This document shows, piece by piece, positions 3,546 through 47,068 of a stretch of 64,000 bases of DNA. The DNA comes from Pleurotus ostreatus/Saccharomyces cerevisiae fusant (taxonomy: Eukaryota > Opisthokonta): positions 1-64,000 of the forward strand of contig JAMQCK010000093.1 of NCBI GenBank assembly GCA_024196135.1. Reading direction: 5' to 3'. The notes beneath the pieces were generated by a model, which made no database searches, was not told the origin of the DNA, and was given only the letters and a program-made list of their open reading frames with translations. Numbering within the stretch: position 1 is the stretch's first letter; each line of letters opens with the position of its first letter. Both the position numbers and the translations under genes were made by a program.

Positions 3546-4886
3546 ATGTCAGGACACCATCACAGCACTCTCTGCACCGATTGCGGCCACTCCGTCTCTA
3601 TCGACCTCTCGCTCGGTCCAGAAGAGGAGGTGCTTCAAGCTATCCGCGACGGGCACATACCCTCCGAATCCTCATGCCGTGCGCACAACGCGGCAGCGGA
3701 TGCGGTCCAGTCGAAAATTGACGAGCTGGATCGGCCCATTGAGCGGCTGCAGACCTTGACCGAGGAAGTGGAGGAACACCGCGATCGACTCATCGAATAT
3801 TCTGAGCAGCAGCGCGCTCTGGCGGCTCCTGTTCAACTTGTACCAGCCGAGCTCTGGGAGACGATCTTCCGATATGCATGCGCGGAAACGACGCTCGAAT
3901 ACCCTCTCAAGCGCGACATGCTCACCGCACTCTCTCTCGGTCTCGTCTGTCAGAGGTGGCGTGCTATCGCTCGACGCGATACCCAGCTTTGGGCGCCTTA
4001 CCTGCGATTTGACGTGTACGCGCTCATGTTTGACCTTGCAACATTATTACTTGAGGACGAAGTGCGCGACTTTCGCGCGGTCGTGGCTTGCTATCTCGAA
4101 CGTTCCCGCACTGAGCCGCTCCGCCTGCACATAATGTGGCGTGGGCTCGAAGCAATGCCACAGGAACTGGAAACTTTCTCGGAGGACGCGCACCACCTGC
4201 TTCGCGACGTATTCGCGCACTTCTGGAGATGGAAGAAGTGCACCATTGCCGCTGACGTGTTGGAATATATGCTCGAGCACGAACCACGCATCAGGGTGCC
4301 GAGCTCGCTGGAGTACTGCTCCGTCATCGACCCAAAGGGAAGTCATCGCCGGATCGTTCCTTTATTTTCGGACGCACCGCGCCTCACGCGCTGGTCACAT
4401 TCAGGCCGCGGGCTTTACGAACCGGATCTTCCATTCTCGCAAATCACGTATTTCGATGCGGAATGGACTTCTGTTGAATATCTGGGGCAAATACTGCGGT
4501 CCTGCAAAGCTCTCGAATACCTTGACGTCTACGTAGCCGCTGGGAGTGACTCGCATCTCAGCGGTTTCCCTTCGCGCGCCTCGCTTCCGCATCTGAAAGT
4601 ACTCGCGCTCAAAAGAGCATCCAGCTCCCTCGTGCATACCGTCCTCTGCCTCCTCAGCGCGCCCATTTTGGAGTATCTGATGCTGGATTTGAGGCCCGGT
4701 CAGCCGTGGGGGGAGTCCCTTGCGGCAGAGTTGTACTCGCTCTTGGAGCGATCCTCGGGGAAAATCTCTTTGCACATCAGCATGACTCTTTCTGGCGACA
4801 GACTTCGCGAATTCCTGAGGCATCCACGCATCGGGTCGGTCAATGGCTACATGTTGAGTATGTGCCCATATCAAGTACCGACATAG
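3546..4886 (+). CDS. F-box-like protein, CxxC / coiled coil / F-box / LRR-like (type C family, A1)
   Basis: Uninterrupted 446-residue frame from ATG 3546. Order: N-terminal LCTDCGHSVSID motif (half of a zinc-ribbon-like CxxC), a conserved EVLQAIRDGHIPSESSC stretch, a coiled coil at about residues 55-95 (LDRPIERLQTLTEEVEEHRDRL), then an F-box-like helix set, VPAELWETIFRYACAETTL ... LVCQRWRAIARRDTQLWAP, at about 98-150. The rest resembles divergent leucine-rich repeats. Predicted role, from the family, is substrate recognition in an SCF ubiquitin ligase; the target is unknown. It is closest in this window to the gene at 9152, which has the same ACAETTL...PLK signature, and the two flank a zinc-finger gene. 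Confidence 0.85.
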   Translation: MSGHHHSTLCTDCGHSVSIDLSLGPEEEVLQAIRDGHIPSESSCRAHNAAADAVQSKIDELDRPIERLQTLTEEVEEHRDRLIEYSEQQRALAAPVQLVPAELWETIFRYACAETTLEYPLKRDMLTALSLGLVCQRWRAIARRDTQLWAPYLRFDVYALMFDLATLLLEDEVRDFRAVVACYLERSRTEPLRLHIMWRGLEAMPQELETFSEDAHHLLRDVFAHFWRWKKCTIAADVLEYMLEHEPRIRVPSSLEYCSVIDPKGSHRRIVPLFSDAPRLTRWSHSGRGLYEPDLPFSQITYFDAEWTSVEYLGQILRSCKALEYLDVYVAAGSDSHLSGFPSRASLPHLKVLALKRASSSLVHTVLCLLSAPILEYLMLDLRPGQPWGESLAAELYSLLERSSGKISLHISMTLSGDRLREFLRHPRIGSVNGYMLSMCPYQVPT

Positions 4887-29956: not shown

Positions 29957-30524
29957 TGACGAACGCACGACAGTCCTCGCTCTCTGCTACGTGACTTATG
30001 CCTGCCTGCCGCCCCATGGCACGCCCGGGGATGGATGGATTTGCACTGACGTTGATAGGGCGGGACGGACGCGGATGGACCTTGGCTCGTTGACATGCAT
30101 ATGCTCGCCGATACCGTACACTCGCGGCTATCGTACATTCGCGGCTTCCATACACTCGTTCTCCGTTACCTCGCCGTTGGCTCGCTTCGATTGATACCTT
30201 GTGTTTTTACTACTTACCATTATTCGTCCCGACCGTGCGCGTCCGTTAGGGCGCGCGCCACGCTCCTTGTATCTGTCCGTTATCCTATAGCTACCTCGTT
30301 TTGTGCGTTGCGGTGTGGTGCGTCAGACCTCCGCAGCGCGTTGTGTAAGTATACGGTGCCGTCTGACTCTGCCTTCAATGGATTGGTTATATGCCAGTGG
30401 TGTTGGAGTCGCTAGTTGAAGAATTTCGAAGGGAGGTAGCGTGGCAGTCACATGATCTCCACGTTTTGTTGACGAGTGCATGCTCGTGCTTTGATCTTGA
30501 ACCGTAACCACCACCACCGCCGAC
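29957..30524. other. Intergenic region
   Basis: 568 bp of 3' flank of the AP180 gene and 5' flank of the first type B F-box gene. No gene seen. Confidence 0.5.
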
Positions 30525-31199
30525 ATGCGCCGCTCAACAAGGATACAGGCTCTTACATCCAAAGACGCTTCGGCTGGCGCTTTGGGTGACACCGCAAGCC
30601 TAGCTGGCTCTCGAGGCCGAGTCAGCAAGTCAACTGCGCGGAAGCGGGCGAGGGGTCAGATTGAAGCGGAAGTAATCGTCCGTGATGACAACAACGCTTC
30701 TGAGCGCAACCCAACGACTGACTCTAAAAGCAAGGTGTGTAATTATGCTACTGTTCCTTTACGTGCTCTAATGATTTTTTTGCAGCGTGCTCGGACCAAC
30801 CGAAAGGCCAAGCATGTCGAACCGGCGTCCCGGCGATCTGCTAGGATCTTCGCTCGCATGAACGGTCCTATACACCGTCTGCCCGCCGAGCTCCTCTCCG
30901 AGATATTCTTGCACCTCCGCGAGCTGCTCGATTCCGGCTGGGGATATCCCAATCCCACACCGAAGCTGGATGACACCATCACGCGCGTCTGCAAGTCTTG
31001 GCGACGCATTGCGCATGGGACGCCACTATTGTGGCAATACATCGTCCCCCAAAGCAGGGAGCTCGCCGAATATCTGCGCCGATATCTACCTCTCACGGGG
31101 ACGTGTTCACTACACGTCGACTTGTGTCGCACCATGTACAGCAGTGACCAGTCCGGGATAGAGCAGCTTCGTGACCATTCGCATCGCATGCGTTCTCTG

Positions 31200-31207
31200 C
31201 GGCTGAT
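31200..31207 (+). repeat. Target site duplication, left copy (CGGCTGAT)
   Basis: 8 bp immediately before the left terminal inverted repeat, identical to 36231-36238. Eight bases is the hallmark of hAT elements. Confidence 0.95.
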
Positions 31208-31225
31208 TAGGGCTGGACACCGTCA
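31208..31225 (+). repeat. hAT left terminal inverted repeat
   Basis: 18 bp, perfect inverted match to 36213-36230. It lies at the 3' end of the transposase gene. Confidence 0.96.
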
Positions 31226-31370
31226 GTACGACGGCTACGGTCCGTACGGGAACGGTGTGTGCTGGCCAGGAGCAATCTGTTTCCGTACCACCGGTCCACA
31301 TTTGAAGACCTAAGACGGTACGGTACGGTCCAGGGTACGGGCAAGAACGGTGTATACGGTGTCCACGGTA
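31226..31370. promoter_or_regulatory. hAT left subterminal ACGG/CCGT repeats
   Basis: A cluster of ACGG and CCGT tetramers in both orientations (for example GACGGTACGGTACGGTCC and GGTGTATACGGTGTCCACGG). Such subterminal repeats bind transposase in Ac/Ds-type elements; binding here is inference. Confidence 0.65.
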
Positions 31371-31398
31371 TATAATGATTGTAGAATCAAGAAAAATG

Positions 31399-34300
31399 CT
31401 ACACTACGCCGTCGGCCTTCTCCATCCTCTTACGTGCAAGGCGAAGACGGTGCTTGACCATCATCAGAACACGTATCGTGTTTGGCTGAAGACTAGCGCG
31501 ACGCAGAGAGATCGTGTCACGACCTCCTGAGAACACCCTCTCAACAGCAACAGCTGATCCTATATCAAGATGTCAGTACAATGACCTTCACAAGAACAAG
31601 GTGCATTACCAGGGATAGACAGGACATCGCAAGCCAGTCGATAGAGGTTGGGAAAGCGAGCCTTGCGTCCCATCCACCACTCGATTGGATCACAAGTCTC
31701 GAAGTCCTCCAGTGGGAGCGTGAAGTACTCCTCGAGCTCGTCCCGAACGGCAAGCTTGCGCTTCTTGTATCGAGCGCCAAGCCGCAGTTTTGAGGGCGAC
31801 GTGTTGGCCGACGTAGCTGCCGATGTTGAGGTTGATGTGGACGCCGATGAGGTCGATGTCAAAGCAGTTGCTGGATCCTGGGTGTATGAGCGCGACGAGG
31901 CTAAGTATTGATCGTGGAAGTGCTCATGAAGAGCCTTCTTCGCGTCTTCAAGGTAATCGAGGAGATCGTCGTCGTCTTCGTAATCGTCCTTCAGGCCCTC
32001 GTATGACATCCGGGGGTCAAGTACTACAACCAAGTTCAGTATGACGAGACAAAACTAGTTGACGTACTCACGACTCGCCCAAGTATATAGATGTGACTCA
32101 TCAAACTTGTAGTAGTATTCGGCAAGTTTGTGATGAGCGTTGGCGAGGCCCTCCTTGATCTCGGATGGCGTCCCGGCTGGTAGCTCGGCCAAGCTCGTCT
32201 TGAGATGTTGTTGGAGTTCACGGAAAGTTGAATGGACGGTGGATAGCATGGGACGGGAGGTGCGCGACATATCTGTTGTCGCCTCACGGAAAGCCTTCAG
32301 CCAGCCCGTGACGAGCTTGATAGCCTGCCAGTCTTCATCGGACAGCTCGTACTGCCGGAGATCCTTCTCGAGGGAGACATAATCCTTGATAATCTCCTCA
32401 TAGTCGAGCGCCCGGCCTAGTCTAGTTATCAGCACCAGCCTGCACGCCCACGGATTGCCACTCACGTAACATTTGATGAGTTGAGGACCAACGCGTACGC
32501 ACATCCAAGATCAACATGAGCAGGAACTCCGTATTGTGCACGATCTCATCCGCACGCTTCCTCTTGATGAGGTCGATCCACCGCTGGCGACGCTGGGGAG
32601 AGACACGGACACCCTTGATTATCGCGCGAAGCTGCAGGAAACTGTTCATTGACCAGAGAAACAGTCAAAGCAAGCGAGCACGTACACGGATTATGGCGGT
32701 TCGGATCCCAGCACTCATCCATGGGCTACCAGGACTGGCTGTAGGCGCGCCACTCTCGTCCGCATCCTCCGAGTCGGCCTCGGTATAATCGACGTCGAAG
32801 TCGCGCTCGACAGGAATGGTTACGGAGTCCTGGTAGTTTGTTGTCGCGGCCTTTTTGGTCTTCTTGTTGTCCTTCGGCCAGACACCGACAGCTTCCATAA
32901 GCTAGCGGTGCACGTGAGTGAAGTTCCCTAAAAGAACAGTTCCTACGTACCTTCAACGCTGCAAGGTGAATCGTATGTGGCATGCACCGAAGACGCGCCT
33001 GCTGTGCATCGAAATAGATCCCGTCTGCTATGCAGCGCCGTGCGATTTCGGCGACCATGGTGTCATTGTTCGTCGCGTTGTCCATCATAAACGCGATGAC
33101 CTATATGATCCGTGAGCGCCAGTGAACATGTCGAAGCCCAATCGAAGCCACTAGCTATCTACACACCTTGCGCTCAAGCCCGTAGGTCTTCAATGTCTTC
33201 CAAACAACGTCGGCCATGTTCTCACCCGTGTGAGCTCCGACAAGTTCTTGAAAATCGATCAAAAGCTCCTCTGCGAAGTGATCAGCATTGCAACGTCGGA
33301 GTAATCAGTTTGGTACCCACCAAGTTGCCCCTCGTTCGTCACATAATGTGCAACGATGGCCAGGAAAGCGTGTTGGTTGCTTGATGTCCATGCGTCAATA
33401 GATATTGTAACTTTTCCTTCAAGCTCCTGTGCACCATGAGCCACCGCATACACGCACAGCATAGTCGAGAAAATCAACATACCGCAAACATGGACTTCAG
33501 CTCATCAACTGTCTCATCCCCCATCTGCATGATGCGACGGCGGAAGGCTTTCCGACCAGGCATGTCGTAGTCAAGCGGCGCGCGGTGATTCTGGGCGTAC
33601 TTAATCATTGCGAGGAAGGATGGCTTCTCGACCTCGTCAAATGGCTGGTCTGTTTCTACCATCCACTCAGCAACAAGGCGTTCCCAAGCATTGTCGTCCC
33701 AGGGCTCCTACATTATGTCAGCCTGTTTAGAGTAGGAAGACGGGGGTCAGACCTGCTGTGCATCGATCTGGCGTTGGAAGGCTTGCTTGATACTTTCGGT
33801 TCGAGCGTCGAGCTTTCGCTCGTAGCGTGCAGCCAATGCTGAAGTCATCTCGACCTTCCCAGTAGCCAGGTCGATCTCGTCCTGTGTGATGTCGCCACCA
33901 GATACCATTCGCATCGCCTCGTAAAGGGCGAACATGCCCGGAAAACTCTTGAGGTGAGCAACCAAGCCTTGGCGGGAGGGTGAGCGATGGAGAGACCAGC
34001 GACAAGTTCACGTACTATTTGTGCAGCACCTCATCGCCTTCGTGATCGTAAAGACACGACGAGCACCATGCCACGACCTATAGTGTCGATCGCCTGGCTT
34101 GCCGGTCTCACCAGCTGCGTTGTGGTCGACGCGCTCGTAGAAATGGTATATGGGGCTTCGAGCCTGCTTCTGTAACCACATCAGTATGTGAACCTACACC
34201 AAAGGCAGAAACATACCGAACGTTGCCCCTTCGGCACCTCAGCTCCACGGACCGTCGTTCTCGAAGAAGTTGCACCTGACTTCGTCCCCATATCCTTGTC

Positions 34301-35648
34301 TTCTCGCGGCACCTTCGGGTTTGCTGGTTGCTTCCCCTTGTCCTTCAGCTTACGAGGTTGCAGCGGTACCGCTCGAGAAGGCAGCACTCCCGCCAGCTAT
34401 CTCGCGTCAGATGGACCGAGCAGGAGGATCAAAGCACTCACCTCCTCGCCCAGGATCTCTACGTCCGAGTCCGCAGAGGCATCCGACTCGGTGTCGAAGC
34501 CGTCACTTGTGTATGTTGCGTCTTCACCGTCAGAATTGACCGCCATGCCCGCCATGTTACCGCCCTTCTTCGCCTTGCGTCGTCGCTTCCGGCGCTTAGG
34601 TTCATCGTCACCAAGATGCTCCTTTTCCGCAGCCAAAGACGCATCAAGCTTGCTGGTGCGACGCTCGCGACGCCCGCGACCTGATAAGCCCGTCAAAATA
34701 GGTCAACACGTGCAAAAATGAGCAACGTACCATCGGTTCCTTCAATACAATCTGGTCCTCAAGAGACACGTCAGTGCAGGTCAAGGATGAGATGAGTCAC
34801 GGCATACCGTCCTGGCTAGCACCTCCACGTAACAAAAGACGTAGGTCAACATGCGCCATAGGACCGATACCAAGCTCGTCCAGGGTGCCGATATCTGGAA
34901 CTTCTGTGCGTGAGCCTCGTCGAACGAGGACTCCAGTACGCTGGTGCCAAAAGGACGCAGGGATGGAAAGACGCTCGCTGAGCATGGCCTTCAGTTGAGC
35001 GCCAGAGATGTTCGCCTCAACGACTAGGATTGGACAACGATGAGAAAAATCGTGCAGATGAGATACATTGACATGACTTACGAAGCGGCAAGGTCCCTCG
35101 TCCTGCATCACCACCAACAAAGATAGTATAACTATTGAGCTGCTGGCGGACGCGACGAAGCGATGTGTTGGCAGCATGTTCCCGACGATAGCGTATATGC
35201 CGAGGGAGGTGAAAGACTTGATGAAGACGTAGAAGGATAGGATACTGTGATTGCGCTACACGAGCAGTGAGCAAATTATCAACAACAAAGGGAAATGACG
35301 CACCGACAATGCAGGTAAGCAGCAACAAATATCCATATACAACTATAAGGACCTCTGGAAGCGAAGCCAGCTGGATCGGGGTGAAGGCTGTGAGCAGATA
35401 GAAGAGCCTGAAGCAGGCGAGAGTTGAGAAAAGCGGCAGGAAGAGAAGGCACGCGACGAGGGAGAGCCAACGTAGGGGATGGTGGATGATAGTTGATGGG
35501 CTTGCTGCCCGAAAAGCGCCAGGCTTCGCACCTATCAACGAGGTCAGTAGGGATGTGGGAAGTATCAGATGCGGAACTCACTACCACCACCATGCGTGCG
35601 TGGATTCATCGTGGTTGGGGATGTGGACGTAGCGAGCTGGGAGGTCAT
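31399..35648 (-). CDS. hAT transposase with N-terminal hydrophobic segment and ubiquitin-like domain
   Basis: Splicing of about 18 exons, checked codon by codon for the first 14, gives about 1,130 residues from ATG 35648 (MTSQLATSTSPTTMNPR) to TAG at 31399. Order: a hydrophobic stretch with two potential membrane helices (LSLVACLLFLPLFSTLACF; VLIVVYGYLLLLTCIV); a ubiquitin-like domain of about 83 residues (35135-34821, intron 35024-35081) ending LRLLLRGG; a Lys/Arg-rich and acidic linker; a BED-like region (RVFTITKAMRCC...LVAHLK); then the RNase-H-like core: TISIDAWTSSNQHAF, IAFMMDNATNND, RCMPHTIHLAALK, DVRTRWSSTHQML. The C-terminal hATC dimerisation block is DPIEWWMGRKARFPNLYRLA and AVAVERVFSGGRDTISLRR. 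No stop or frameshift was found. The core call is certain; the N-terminal fusion is my splice model. Confidence 0.9.
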
Positions 35649-36084
35649 GGTCGGCTTTTATGCACCTGTACCGCAGTACAAATCGGGACTGTGAAGTTTT
35701 CAAGGCAACCAACGTAGGCTAGACTGAGCATCTGCCATCGATAGTCTGTAATATGCAGGGTGAGCGAGTGCATCGGTGCAGGCTAACACATCGACGCACC
35801 GAACAGTGTCAGCAAAAAAGTACACGTTCCTCAGGCGGCAACATCTTTGTACAGCGTCGCTCTCTCATCCACGAGCCGAGAGCAAAGAGAGAACACTAAC
35901 TCAAGGTGCCATGAAAGGCAGTATAGACATCCGCAGCTCCGTGAATGGACGGTCATTTCGGGCACTGTCGAGCCACGTCAAGGACGCGCAGCACGAGCCC
36001 GAGCAAGGAGGAACTTTCAATGCTGGTCCAGACGAGAGTGAGATGCTTATAGTATTGGAGCAGGGAGGCCGTCGGGGCCGTACG

Positions 36085-36212
36085 ACGGCTGCGCACGGAC
36101 GGGCTTGACGGGTGAGAGAAGAACTTGAGCCGGGCCGTCACCGACCCAAGCCCAAGCGTGACGGTACGGGTCACTACTCATTATTACGGGCCGTATTTCC
36201 GACTATATACGT
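36085..36212. promoter_or_regulatory. hAT right subterminal ACGG/CCGT repeats
   Basis: Dense CCGT/ACGG motifs (GGCCGTCGGGGCCGTACGACGG, GGGCCGTCACCGACCC in part) mirror the left end. Probable transposase binding region and promoter-proximal DNA of the transposase gene. Confidence 0.6.
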
Positions 36213-36230
36213 TGACGGTGTCCAGCCCTA
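36213..36230 (-). repeat. hAT right terminal inverted repeat
   Basis: 18 bp, perfect inverted match to 31208-31225; it lies upstream of the transposase gene. Confidence 0.96.
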
Positions 36231-36238
36231 CGGCTGAT
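36231..36238 (+). repeat. Target site duplication, right copy (CGGCTGAT)
   Basis: Identical to 31200-31207; the F-box reading frame continues directly from it. Confidence 0.95.
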
Positions 36239-37390
36239 GGCCTCGTTCACGGAGTTCAGCGTGATGCAGCCCCTTTCCACGCCCGATCCCCAGAGCGTTT
36301 TCGTCTCGACGCTCTCTGAGGAGCCGCTGGGCACGGTCACACCCCTGGCATTTCTCGAGGATGTCTCTCGTCTGTCCAAACTCGGTCTAAACTTTCAATC
36401 CGTCGAATTGCAGGCGATCTCGGTGCCGCCGTTGGAAGCACTCACGGAGCTCAACCTGTATCTGAGCTTTGGCGTCGCGAGCGTCCATGACGTATTGCAG
36501 CAGTGCTGCAGGACGCTCAGGAAGCTCAAAGTCAGCGTTGGCGTATGCGACACGCGGCCGGCGCCAGCCGAGGCTCTGGACCTTCCCTCACTCCTGAGCC
36601 TTGACCTCGATTGCAATGATGGCCCGGTCCTTCAGATGATCTCGGCGCCTAACCTCGAAAAACTGAAGCTCTACGGACCCGCGCCTGAAATCCCCGCTCT
36701 CCTTCTGGCCTACCTCACCCGCGTACCTTCCTCTGCCGCAAATCTCCGCCTCCTTCACATCGACACCGTGCATACGGAGGATTGGGACGAGACCACGGTA
36801 CCAGGAATCCTCCTCGAGTGCTTCGCCAAGATGGAAGGGCTCCAGGTCATTGGCTTTCGTGTGTTCCCGGATAAGATGGAGATGGCGATTTTCGGCCCAC
36901 TGACCAGAAACTCGGAGGAGGGCGCTCTACCACTGCTGCCGAGCCTGAAGGTCGCCATGTTCGGTAGCCGAAGTTTTAGCTGGAACATCGTCTACACCGA
37001 GGCGTACAAAGTGTTTGTGGAATCACGGAAAAGCGCTCAGCTTATAGGCGGGGCCGTGGTTCCAGTGGCGCAGATCTCGCGGGAGCACCGGGACATTTGG
37101 AAGATCGACATCGGTCAGGTTTAGGTCCAATAGTATCCTACAGATATTCTGGTGTTGACTTTATGTATAATTGAGGCCACATAGAACTTGGAGGGAATTG
37201 AGCTCATTGGGTGTGTGTGTGAGGGTGTACTTGTTGGGAGCAGAGCTCTTATGAAGTAATGCGCGCATGGAAAACTGACAAATATGTTCGGCAGTTGCCG
37301 TGCGCGTGTTTCGAGACATGCATGTCGCGCGAGGACGACGTTTACTACCAACCATCAGCTGCGATTGAAGTTTGCTTTGACAACAACGCG

Positions 37391-38901
37391 ATGAGGTGCG
37401 CGTCCTTGCTCAGCACTTTTGTTTTTGACTCTGACTCTTACTCAATCTCAGTAGGACCGAAATATTGACATCGCTCTGCCCGGGGTGCCAACGTTGCGTT
37501 TCTTGCACCGGCCACCCTTTCTCGCCCTCTCAAGACATCGTCGAAGCGATCAGGAACGGCGATGGTTCCTTGGGCGACTTCTCTGACAGCTACTATAGGG
37601 CTCGAGCGATGGACGCAGAGCAACAAGCGCACATCCTCGCTTCCGAGATCGACCGGCTGCTCAGCCTTGCACAAGGGCTTTCGGCGCACCGTCGGCGTCT
37701 CTTGGAATTCGCTGCTCAACAGCGGGCGATAGCCGCCCCCGTGAGGCGCCTACCCGACGAGCTTCTGGAAAAGATCTTCCGGTTCGCGTGCGCCAGCGTA
37801 GTGTTCACGTATCCCTTGTCGAAACCTATGCTGACGGCGGTGGCCATCAGCCACGTCTGTCACCGGTGGCGCGCCATTGCTGAGCACGACAAGCAGCTCT
37901 GGGCACCAGCCTTCATCAAGCTGCACGAAGATGACATCAGCGTGCTCCCGAAAAAACCTACAGTCGAGCAGCTACGGCTCTTCAAGGCGGCCTTACTCGC
38001 CTACCTCGCGAGGTCCGACCCACTTCCCTTCGCCATCGATTTGCGAGGGTCCTGCACCATCCGCGAGGATCATGGATCGAAGGAATTTTCTATCCTGCCC
38101 GAGATGGATTTTATCGACGCTGTCACCCGCCGCTGCGACCACGCGCGCTTTTGCCGCACCTCCGTCCGGTACTTCTCGACGATGCTCCATTTCTACATGC
38201 GGAAACGGGACCGAGCGGCGGGGTGCGTGGTATCGATCATGCTGGAGGCTCTCGAGAGTTTTGAGCTCGTAGACGATCCACGCGCATGGCCGAGGGCAGG
38301 CGTGTCCGCTCCGTACCATCTGGACTTTCTGAAGAATTACGCGCCTCGTCTGCGCTTTTGGAAGCAGGACATTATCGACATGGGCTCTGGTTTCTATGAT
38401 ACTGCGATGCAGCACGTTCCGGCGCACACAGTGGTGCGCCTTGAGGCGTCGTGGACCGACTTCGGACTTGCCATTAATGCACTTTCCTCCTGCGCGAGCT
38501 TGAAGGAGCTCATAATCGGACTCTGCCATACCACCGACACATGGAGCAACCCAAACCGCGAAGCGATGATGCTACCGGAGCTGGAGTCCCTCGCCGTCGC
38601 TGCAGTTCCCGTGCGCTCGGTACTCGGGCGTCTGCTGAGCGGCCTCACTGCGCCGCGTCTGCGACATGCGCGATTTCGCCGTGCACTGCCAGCCGAAGAG
38701 CGTCGCATCGACAGGGAGCTTGCACCAGATAGGACTGATTTTCCGCACGTAGACTTTGCGGGTTTCCTTGAGCGCTCGGGGTGCGCGCTGGAGTCGTTAG
38801 CTCTGCAGGGCGTATGCGCCACGCTCGAGGACGCCGTCCTTCTTCGAGAGAGACTGTCGAGGACAACAGAGATTTTGATAGAGGACGCTAAGATCGCGTA
38901 G
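37391..38901 (+). CDS. F-box-like protein, type C (C1)
   Basis: The coding start is a 5-nt first exon, ATGAG at 37391-37395, then an intron to 37451. Exon 2 (37452 on) gives MSRTEILTSLCPGCQRC. Without this splice the frame has no ATG, since the in-frame codon at 37465 is TTG, and the same layout recurs in C2, C3 and C4. Order: C-P-G-C-Q-R-C-x-S-C motif, PSQDIVEAIRNGD, coiled coil (ILASEIDRLLSLAQGLSAHRRRL), F-box-like LPDELLEKIFRFACASVVF with CHRWRAIAEHDKQLWAP, then LRR-like repeats. It follows B1 by 267 bp on the same strand. Predicted SCF substrate receptor. Confidence 0.85.
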
Positions 38902-43439: not shown

Positions 43440-44906
43440 TCAACCCTCTACCTGCAGTTCTGTGGTGCCTGGCAACCTGTCTCGGACGAGGACGGCGTCC
43501 TCTGGCGTGGTGCATACGCCCTGTAGGGCCAGAAACTCCAGCACGCAGTTTGAGCGCTCGAGGAACCCAGCGAGTTCGGCGAGCGGGAAATCTGTTCTGT
43601 CCGGCGCAAGTTTTCTGTTGATGCGGCGCTCGTCGTCTGGCGTTGCACAGCGGAACCGGACATGCCGCAGACGCGGGGCAGTGAGAACGCTCAGCAGGCG
43701 GCCGAGTACAGTGCGCGCGGGGACTGCAGCGACGGTGAGGGACTCCAGCTGCGGCAGCGTCATCGACTCGCGGTCGGAATCGCCCCGTGTGTTCGTGATG
43801 TCGAAGAGCCCGATTACGAGCTCCTGCAAGTTTACGCAGGAGGAAAGCGCACGTTTCGCAAGGACCAGCTGGGTCCACAATGCTTCAAGGCGTACCAAAC
43901 TGTGCGTCGGAGCGCTTTCAATGACCCTATGGTTATAATCATCAAAGTCGACGATGTCCTGCTTCCAATAGCGCAGACGAGGCGCGTGCTCGGTGAGGGC
44001 GGCCACGATGTCTCGTGCGTCTCCTGTCACCATCCAGTCCTCGAGCTCGAGACTCTCGAGGCGCTCAAGTATCATGCCCCTGCGCGTCGACCGGCCACGC
44101 ATTGCTTGAGATATATTCCACATCAAATTATCGACGGAGGAGATGCAGCCGAAGCGCGCGCGGTGGCAGCGGCGGCGGACAGCATCAGCGAACGCCGCTG
44201 CTGGCAGGATAACGTACTCTGCCCCGTCCCATACTCCGTTGGGGTAGATGCAGCCGCCTTGTAAGTCGATAGCGAATGGCAATGGATCCGATCTCGCGAG
44301 GTAAGCAAGGAAGGCCGCCTGGAAGGGCGGCAGCTGCTTAAATGTAGGTTTCTTTGGGAGCTCATCGATCTCGCGTTTGTGCAGCTTGAAAGAGGCCGGC
44401 ACCCAGAGCTGCTTGTCATGCATAGCGATGGCGCGCCACCGGTGGCAAACGTGGCTGATGGATGCCGCCGTCAGCATCGGTTTCGACAGTGGATACGTGA
44501 ACACGACGCCCGCGCACGCAAGGCGGAAGATCTTTTCCAGAAGCTCATCGGGTAGGCGCCTCACTGGCGCGGCTACCGCGCGCTGCTGAGCAGCGAAGTC
44601 CAAGAGACGCTGACGGTGCGCCGAAAGCTCATGTGCCAGGCTGAGCAGCCGATCGATTTCGGAAGCAAGGGTGTGAGCTTGTTGCTCTGCGTCCATCGCT
44701 CGGTCCCGGTATTGGTTGTCAGAAAGGGCGCCCAAGGACTCATCGCTATTCCTGATCGCTTCGACGATGTTTTGAGAGGGCGAGAAAGGGTGACCGGTAC
44801 ATGAGATGCAATGATGACAACTAGGGCAGAGTAGTGTCGATATTTCGGTCCTACTGGGACTGAGTGAGGGTTTAAAAGAAGTACTGGGCAAGGGCGCGCA
44901 CCTCAT
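43440..44906 (-). CDS. F-box-like protein, type C (C2)
   Basis: The start is the 5-nt exon ATGAG (44906-44902), then an intron to 44860; exon 2 begins at 44859 and reads MSPSRTEISTLLCPSC. Two CAG acceptors 6 nt apart would both keep frame. Order as in C1: LCPSCHHCISC, PSQNIVEAIRNSD, coiled coil (TLASEIDRLLSLAHELSAHRQRL), F-box-like LPDELLEKIFRLACAGVVF with CHRWRAIAMHDKQLW, LRR-like repeats ending TTELQVEG. Close relative of C1 on the opposite strand; it follows B2 at 248 bp. Confidence 0.85.
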   Translation of the reverse strand: MRCAPLPSTSFKPSLSPSRTEISTLLCPSCHHCISCTGHPFSPSQNIVEAIRNSDESLGALSDNQYRDRAMDAEQQAHTLASEIDRLLSLAHELSAHRQRLLDFAAQQRAVAAPVRRLPDELLEKIFRLACAGVVFTYPLSKPMLTAASISHVCHRWRAIAMHDKQLWVPASFKLHKREIDELPKKPTFKQLPPFQAAFLAYLARSDPLPFAIDLQGGCIYPNGVWDGAEYVILPAAAFADAVRRRCHRARFGCISSVDNLMWNISQAMRGRSTRRGMILERLESLELEDWMVTGDARDIVAALTEHAPRLRYWKQDIVDFDDYNHRVIESAPTHSLVRLEALWTQLVLAKRALSSCVNLQELVIGLFDITNTRGDSDRESMTLPQLESLTVAAVPARTVLGRLLSVLTAPRLRHVRFRCATPDDERRINRKLAPDRTDFPLAELAGFLERSNCVLEFLALQGVCTTPEDAVLVRDRLPGTTELQVEG

Positions 44907-45153
44907 CACGTTGTTGTCGTCGAAGCAAGCTTCAATCGCAGTTGACGGTTGGTAGTAAACGTCGACCTCGCGCGACGTGCATGTCACATAACATGAGCAC
45001 GGCGAGTGCCGAACGTATTTGTCAAATTGCCTCACAAGAGCCCCTCAGTGCCCTCACACACACAATGAGCTCAATTCCTTTCGAGTTCAAGTTCTACGTG
45101 ACCTCGAGTATACATAGCACCGGCACAAGGATATCTGTAGAATACTATTGGAC

Positions 45154-46725
45154 CTAAGTCTGACCGATGTCAATCTCCCAAATGTCCCGGTGCTTCCTCG
45201 AGATCTGCGCCGCCGGAACCACGGCCCCGCCTATAAGCTGAGCGCTCTTCCGTGATTTCACAAACACTTTGTACGCCTCGGTGTATACGCTGTTCCAGCT
45301 GAAGCTTCGCCTACCAAACAGTGCGACCTTCAGGTTCGGCAGCAGTGGTAGAGCGCCCTCCTCCGAGTTTTTGGTCAGAGGGCCGAAAATCTCCATCTCC
45401 ATCTCATCGGGAAACACATTGAAGCCAATGATCTCGAGCCTCTCCATCTTGGCGAAGCACTCGAGGAGGATTACTGGTACCGTGGCCTCGTCCCAGTCAT
45501 CCGTATGCCCGGTGTCGATGTGGAGGAGGCGGAGATTCGCGGCAGAGGCAGGGACGCGGGTGAGGTAGGCCAGAAGGAGAGCGGGGATGTCGGGCGCGGG
45601 TCCGTAGAGCTTCAATTTTTCGAGGTTAGGCGCCGAGATCATCTGAAGGACCGGACCGTCATTGCAATCGAGGTCAAGGCTCACGAGAGAGGGAAGGTCC
45701 AGAGCCTGGGCTGGAGCCGGCCGCGTGTCGCATACGCCAACGCTGACTTCGAGCTTCCTGAGCGTCCTGCAGCACTGCTGCAATACGTCATGGACGTTCG
45801 AGACGCCAAAACACAGGTACAGGGTGAGCTCCGTGAGGGATTCCAACGGCGGCACCGAGATTGCCTGCACTTTGACGAATTGGAAGTTCAGGCATAGGTC
45901 GGATAGCCGAGAGACGTCGTCGAGGAACGCCAAGGGTATGGCCGTGCCGAGCGGCTTCTCTGAAAGCGTCATGATGAAAGCGCTCTGGAGATCTGGCGAG
46001 GCGAAGGGCTGCATAGCGCTGAACTCCTCGAAAGAGGCCGTCACCTCCAAGGAGCGCATGCGATGAGAATGGTCCCGGAGCTGCTCTATCCCGGACTGGT
46101 CCCTGCTGGACATGGTGCGGCACAAGTTGACGTGCAGTGGACACGTTCCCGTAAGAGGCAGGTACCGGCGCAGGTATTCGGCGGGCTCCCTGCTTTTAGG
46201 GGCGATGTACTGCCACAGTAGTGGCGTCCCATGCGCAACGTGCCGCCAGGACCTGCAGACGCGCGTGATGGTGCTGTCCAGCGCCGGTGTGGGATTGGGA
46301 TATCTGTGGTCGGGGATGAGCAGCTCGCGGAGGTGGAGGAATATCTCGGAGAGGAGCTCGGCGGGCAGGCGGTGTATAGGACCGTTCATGCGAGCGAAAA
46401 TTCTAGCAGATCTCCGGGATGGTTCGACGTGCTTGTCTTTTCGGTTGGCCCGAGCGCGCTGCAGAAAAAAGATCAGAGCTCACACAGGAGCAGTAGCATA
46501 ATCACACACCTTGTTTTTAGAGTCAGTCGTTGTGTTGCGCTCAGAAGCGTCGTGGTCATCATGGGCGATTACTTGCGATTCAATCTGACCCCTCGTCCGC
46601 TTCCGCCCGGTCGCCTTGCTGACTCTGCCTCGAGAGCCAGCTGGGCTTGCGACAGAAATGTCTCCCGAAGCGCCATCCGCAGCATCTTTGATTGTACTGG
46701 CCTGTATCCTCGTCGAGCGGCGCAT
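45154..46725 (-). CDS. F-box/LRR-like protein, type B (B2), intact
   Basis: Two exons, 46725-46510 and 46458-45154, split at the same place as B1. The N-terminus MRRSTRIQAS...ATGRKRTRGQIES is basic and probably nuclear. Then RRSARIFARMNGPIHRLPAE, F-box LPAELLSEIFLHLRELL, CRSWRHVAHGTPLLWQY, and leucine-rich segments (SLTELTLYLCFGV, CRTLRKLEVSVGVC, LPSLVSLDLDC, APNLEKLKLYG, NLRLLHIDTGH) to the end IDIGQT. There is no CxxC or coiled coil, unlike type C. It is the best guide to how B1 looked before the transposon arrived. Confidence 0.88.
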
Positions 46726-47068
46726 GTTGCTCGTGGTGGTGATGGTTCGAAGTCAAGGCACGAAGCAGGATCTCATCGGCAAAACGCGCGCATCATGTGA
46801 CCTCCACGCGAGCAGTGTTTGAATTTGCGGGTGGCAGCTGCTTCTGAGTTGTAAGTACCCAGCTCAAGCTCGACTGCCAGAAAACCGAGCGAACACATGC
46901 CGGGCAATTAAACGCGATGCTAGACCTGACTCTGACCACCGACCTTAGCCATCAAGATCACGAACATAAAATCCGAAAATCCAGCATCAGTGATCTGGTC
47001 CTTCCCGGGCCGCCGACTGTATCCTGGAGACTGACCGACCAAGCGAGGATGCATATACAGTGTACAAG
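46726..47068. other. Intergenic region B2 / C3
   Basis: 343 bp holding the B2 promoter and the C3 3' end; no gene. Confidence 0.5.

Follow-up and report, generated by a model that had tools for sequence, protein, structure and literature searches.

A predicted hAT transposase gene in a fungal genome with hydrophobic helices and a Gly-Gly-tailed ubiquitin-like domain ahead of the transposase core

The window, by which we mean the whole stretch of 64,000 nucleotides analysed, contains an apparently intact hAT transposon of a fungus, to judge by its looks a basidiomycete, 5,023 bp in length (31208..36230, minus strand). The element ends in 18-nt terminal inverted repeats with 100% identity to one another, one at the 3′ end of the gene that it carries (31208..31225, plus strand) and one at the 5′ end (36213..36230, minus strand), and is bordered on both sides by the 8-bp target-site duplication CGGCTGAT (31200..31207 and 36231..36238, both plus strand). 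Contig C109 of the same genome, which is colinear with the window flanks on both sides at 93-96% identity, has this site uninterrupted, with a single CGGCTGAT at the junction and without the element. An inverted paralogue lying within the window itself (44257-46809, ~84% identity) also crosses the site without the element. The empty sites, taken with the inverted repeats and the duplication, imply that the element integrated as a single unit. Searching the 40-Mb assembly at the DNA level gave no second copy of the element, the two other matches being short pieces of the relatives described below.

C109 may represent either the second allele or a paralogue of almost the same sequence. A segment of ~180 bp in the window (30673-30855) is absent from the otherwise colinear C109. 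Ubiquitin loci elsewhere in the assembly are paired by equal scores, C140 with C889 and C677 with C704; these pairs and the empty site (C109:3000-7000) suggest that the assembly partly contains both haplotypes. When the flanks of the element are joined at the duplication they form one continuous frame, i.e. that of an interrupted host gene. The first part of the joined frame matches the Pfam F-box-like family (7.8e-07, 29.2 bits against a cut-off of 24.3), and its second part matches no Pfam family at E ≤0.1. The surrounding region holds a cluster of F-box type genes, comprising 30501-31199 with 36239-37124 (the member split by the hAT element), 37435-38901 and 44257-46809; in the second of these, 37435-38898 matches F-box-like at 1e-07.

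The predicted transposase gene (31399..35648, minus strand) runs from an ATG at 35648 to a stop at 31399 and comprises 18 exons, the spliced translation of which is a chain of 1,126 residues with no internal stops. All 17 introns are GT-AG, each with a length of 45-66 nt. The introns that the original prediction had placed at 35024-35081 and 35256-35303 were recovered to the base, with GT-AG borders and the reading frame kept; a third (35532-35581) is likewise GT-AG and in frame, and 14 more GT-AG introns follow into the transposase. The splice sites in the gene models of all three copies considered here were hand-picked for an open frame, so agreement of intron phase is the weaker evidence; intron columns shared between copies are less affected.

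The hAT core starts at residue 380 (31399..34157, minus strand) and includes, at residues 1031-1110, the C-terminal dimerisation domain PF05699 (E 1.2e-19, 70.4 bits against the Pfam cut-off of 21.4). The three remaining Pfam matches of the full chain, i.e. SurA_N_2, DUF659 and DUF2508, all lie under their cut-offs. An N-terminal BED zinc finger is frequent, but not universal, in the hAT superfamily; zf-BED is not among the Pfam matches of the full chain at E ≤1. Three stretches resemble catalytic motifs on sequence only, DAWTS (residue 584), MDNATNND (residue 649) and VERVFS (residue 1079), and would supply the hAT D, D and E residues under the motif definition that we assume. With one exon of the core as query, no relative was found among viral and prokaryote contigs, as is expected if the element is fungal.

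Ahead of the core the predicted chain has a composite front end. A hydrophobic hairpin at residues 39-98 (35305..35484, minus strand) is recognised from two Kyte-Doolittle peaks over 19 residues, of 2.31 and 2.23; past residue 230 the maximum is 1.29. The hairpin is followed by a basic stretch at residues 100-138 (35137..35253, minus strand), identified from its excess of K/R, with 8 K/R and 1 D/E over residues 99-138 and similar composition in the paralogues. The ubiquitin-like domain (UBL) occupies residues 139-224 (34821..35136, minus strand); it begins with NSYTIFVGG, has the intron 35081-35024 inside it and ends in LLLRGG. Basic stretches that appear NLS-like by eye, GRGRRERR and PKRRKRRRKAKK, then lie within residues 236-274 (34565..34731, minus strand), and basic runs are likewise present between UBL and core in the paralogous copies on contigs C536 and C401.

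These paralogues emerged from a search of the 40-Mb assembly with PF05699. It yielded 28 matches, among which several represent different exons of a single gene; contigs end near several matches, and there the upstream (5′) portion of the gene is absent. By tblastn against 12 PF05699 loci, the relatives on C536, C401 and C296 are close to the window transposase (~35-68% identity over the main exons, E down to 0.0), with the remaining matching loci reaching 70 bits at best. Both C536 and C401 have the front end, with the same order of parts as in the window element. Their UBLs are identical to that of the window at 27/85 (C536) and 25/85 (C401) positions, and their hydrophobic parts at 12/55 and 13/59, respectively. 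Local alignment of UBL pairs gave z values of 19.8-20.9 and that of the N-terminal hydrophobic parts 5.5-9.6, the observed score being reached by 0 of 1,000 shuffles in either case; the values for the hydrophobic parts are to be read with care, because the shuffling of hydrophobic sequence is a weak control. The hydropathy peaks are 2.67 and 1.33 in C536, the second being weak, and 2.43 and 2.56 in C401, such that on hydropathy there are two candidate membrane helices in all three copies.

Both paralogous elements have terminal ends related to the inverted repeats of the window element. The target duplication of C536 agrees in 7 of 8 letters, and at the ends located for C401 no clean target duplication was found. 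In C296, the match starts at residue 429 of the core and the UBL was not found in the 1.8 kb ahead of the match; this relative is therefore counted neither way. By eye, the first 1.8 kb of the stretch C296:1-6000 appears rich in GC and repetitive, and a 3′ inverted repeat end lies at 4570. Close to each end of contig C447, which is 168,368 bases long, there is a hAT piece (C447:2166-2339 and C447:166030-166203); the two have equal scores and opposite orientations.

Comparison of the gene models reveals two intron columns, 178 and 361, common to all three copies. An intron at column 112 is shared by the window and C536, with C401 having none there, and an intron at column 433 in the same two copies has its counterpart at 430 in C401. 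Introns 1, 4 and 5 fall at differing columns, in a region that is loosely aligned. The intron phases agree throughout the three copies. The gene model and the recurrence of the same layout in C536 and C401 bear out the original prediction of one chain leading from the front end into the hAT transposase, and together the analyses support a predicted protein in which hydrophobic helices, a GG-tailed UBL and a hAT transposase follow one another. The inverted repeats and target duplication that bound the element, together with its absence from the C109 site, imply that the front end moves with the transposase.

The resemblance of the domain to ubiquitin, as originally predicted, stands at the level of the family; the window copy by itself is unrecognisable, scoring 3.8 bits against ubiquitin and matching no Pfam family. 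The other two single copies score 7.5 and 10.1 bits, and all three values are below significance. PF00240 is found by Pfam in 2 of the 3 copies (best E 0.014) and Rad60-SLD in 1 of 3 (0.011), the former below its cut-off. A profile built from the three copies gives 25.0 bits against ubiquitin (1.7e-4), where the maximum for 300 column-shuffled profiles is 5.1. A profile built without the window copy retains 19.0 bits for ubiquitin (0.013) and recovers the window copy at 1.5e-12. Chance matching was considered as an explanation and was rejected on the shuffled controls (n=300 for profile columns; n=1,000 for alignments).

Searched against all PDB sequences, the three-copy profile gave 309 matches at E ≤10, the best 60 of which were examined. 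The names among these 60 are all of the ubiquitin, ISG15 or ubiquitin-derived type, where we take the Affilin entries and those called 'interferon-induced 17 kDa protein' to be of ubiquitin/ISG15-derived type. Rows matched over a single stretch range, within the same best 60 of 309, from a ubiquitin chain at 2.2e-6 and ISG15 at 8.8e-6 down to 1.1e-4; polyubiquitin chains have far lower E values because their repeats add up. The best PDB matches cover profile positions 5-86 of 87 and place the GG onto G75-G76 of ubiquitin. An AlphaFold model of exon 4 alone (pLDDT 56.8) has no clear beta-grasp; we count it as uninformative, because strand 1 lies on exon 3 and is thus missing from the model, for which no alignment was used.

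The UBL appears to be confined to this small group of elements. Each UBL exon searched against the whole genome at E ≤1, with the three best candidates scored per search, finds itself and the other two copies only, and at E 0.001 the window exon as query finds C536 only. The three-copy profile, applied in six frames to 43 loci (some overlapping and several without their 5′ side), likewise detects the UBL at the window, C536 and C401 only. PF00240 has 42 matches in the genome at E ≤0.01; the 8 of these places inspected by eye resemble ordinary host UBL genes, presumably of the BAG, RAD23, splicing-factor and ubiquilin types, and none resembles a transposase. No recent capture of the domain from a present-day host gene was seen among these 8 places or among the best candidates at E ≤1, where the UBL exons match only each other.

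The terminal GG of the UBL is kept in all three copies, which are ~30% identical across the domain, the next residue being A, S and A. The GG marks where the membrane/UBL part of the chain gives way to the NLS-like part. The residues preceding it vary, from LLRGG in the window to RVLGG and RRLGG in the paralogues; LRGG, the tail that deubiquitinases read best, thus occurs in the window copy only. At the position corresponding to V70 of ubiquitin, a residue of the Ile44 patch, each of the three copies has Arg, implying that canonical docking of deubiquitinases may be lost. The proposal that the element exploits the host SCF system finds no support, with Arg at the V70 position in 3/3 copies and LRGG in 1/3; the F-box gene into which the element has landed says nothing about the element's own protein. 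The proposal that the UBL controls localisation or stability of the transposase is plausible.

The invariance of the GG at ~30% identity and its position at the border make release by a protease the most likely working model, albeit one that we advance tentatively and at somewhat less than an even chance: the element would encode a membrane-held pro-transposase, which a host protease of deubiquitinase type would release by cutting after Gly-Gly. The pro-protein would consist, in order, of a short N-terminus, the membrane hairpin, a basic cytosolic stretch, the UBL with its GG, the NLS-like stretches and the hAT core. The hairpin would insert into the membrane of the ER or the nuclear envelope with both ends cytosolic. 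According to the positive-inside rule a basic flank marks the cytosolic side, and the basic flank before the UBL would hence place the UBL in the cytosol. There a host deubiquitinase or ubiquitin-like protease may cut after the GG, as happens with ubiquitin-ribosomal protein fusions, and the freed transposase, equipped with the NLS-like stretches, would proceed to the nucleus. Transposition would in this way be coupled to host processing, with uncut enzyme staying off DNA. The weak second hydropathy peak of C536 (1.33) is a point against the membrane hairpin, and the variable residues ahead of the GG and the Arg at the V70 position count against the release step. In its broader form, i.e. a membrane-tethered zymogen freed by host ubiquitin proteases and kept across the whole fungal hAT subfamily, the proposal is rather unlikely.

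The strongest alternative, possible though in our judgement doubtful, is that the UBL is real but is not cut, serving instead as an interaction or regulatory module, while the hairpin positions or buries the enzyme. The module might bind the proteasome, p97 or a SUMO/ubiquitin receptor, or might mediate self-association. Many UBL domains are never processed, and both the variation of the pre-GG residues between copies and the Arg at the V70 position in 3/3 are as expected of such a module; it accounts less well for a GG that is invariant at ~30% identity and that lies at the membrane/UBL-NLS border. An improbable further alternative is that the gene has two products, with the transposase starting from an internal Met and the hairpin-UBL part being separate or optional, e.g. 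a repressor. Methionines are present in frame at residues 278, 281, 351 and 421, the first three (278-351) lying between the GG and the start of the core, and to our knowledge a hAT transposase normally lacks such a front end. Against this, the hand-picked gene models connect the front end to the core in frame, by way of 7 introns in the window copy, 7 in C536 and 6 in C401, and 4 of these introns share their columns between the window and C536, with C401 sharing 2 and having one 3 columns off; no hint of a second start was noticed. That the UBL is a small alpha/beta domain of another fold, ubiquitin-like by chance, is very improbable: the 3.8 bits of the window sequence and the exon 4 model without a clear beta-grasp would fit it, but the profile match, which spans nearly the whole domain and sets GG on GG, the ubiquitin and ISG15 names in the best 60 of 309 matches and the shuffled-profile maximum of 5.1 against 25.0 bits all oppose it.

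Comparison with known systems helps to place the working model of a tethered and protease-released transposase. The hAT superfamily includes the Ac, Hermes and Restless types, with which the window element shares the 8-bp duplication, short inverted repeats and a C-terminal PF05699 domain; it differs in having a hydrophobic hairpin and a UBL before the core. In fusions of the UBA52/RPS27A type a true ubiquitin stands at the very N-terminus, there are no membrane helices and cutting is established. The window element, read from sequence alone, resembles these fusions in the placing of a GG-ended domain with a predicted ubiquitin fold before another protein, whereas its UBL is not at the N-terminus and has membrane-type helices ahead of it. 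TMUB and HERP are membrane proteins with a UBL that involve no mobile element and no transposase core; they combine membrane helices with a UBL in one chain, as the window element is predicted to do with a transposase core besides. The Crinkler header is a UBL-like N-terminus found in proteins linked to transposons, so that a ubiquitin-like N-terminal domain and a connection to transposons are common to both; no Crinkler family appeared in the Pfam scans of the full chain and the UBL copies, the library presumably including one.

Parts of the ubiquitin system have been described in other transposons. One report concerns Helitrons with VTD or OTU domains, which are of deubiquitinase type (PMC9741609), and another concerns RAG1, in which an N-terminal RING ligase is carried on a Transib transposase (PMC10799480). 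These cases demonstrate that components of the ubiquitin system are acquired by proteins of transposons (PMC9741609, PMC10799480). The Helitrons and RAG1 carry enzymes, some of them presumed, that cut or attach ubiquitin (PMC9741609, PMC10799480), whereas the hAT element of the window carries a predicted ubiquitin-like fold itself. Among the open-licence PMC matches listed, no title or abstract opening mentions a hAT element with a ubiquitin-like domain.

A cut-and-paste transposase would be expected to be soluble and to reside in the nucleus, and we know of no other case in which an element regulates itself in the manner proposed here. If the conserved front end is what it appears to be, membrane retention and host proteolysis of the ubiquitin type could gate transposition, and the switch for transposition would then be a membrane hairpin combined with a UBL that the element itself encodes.
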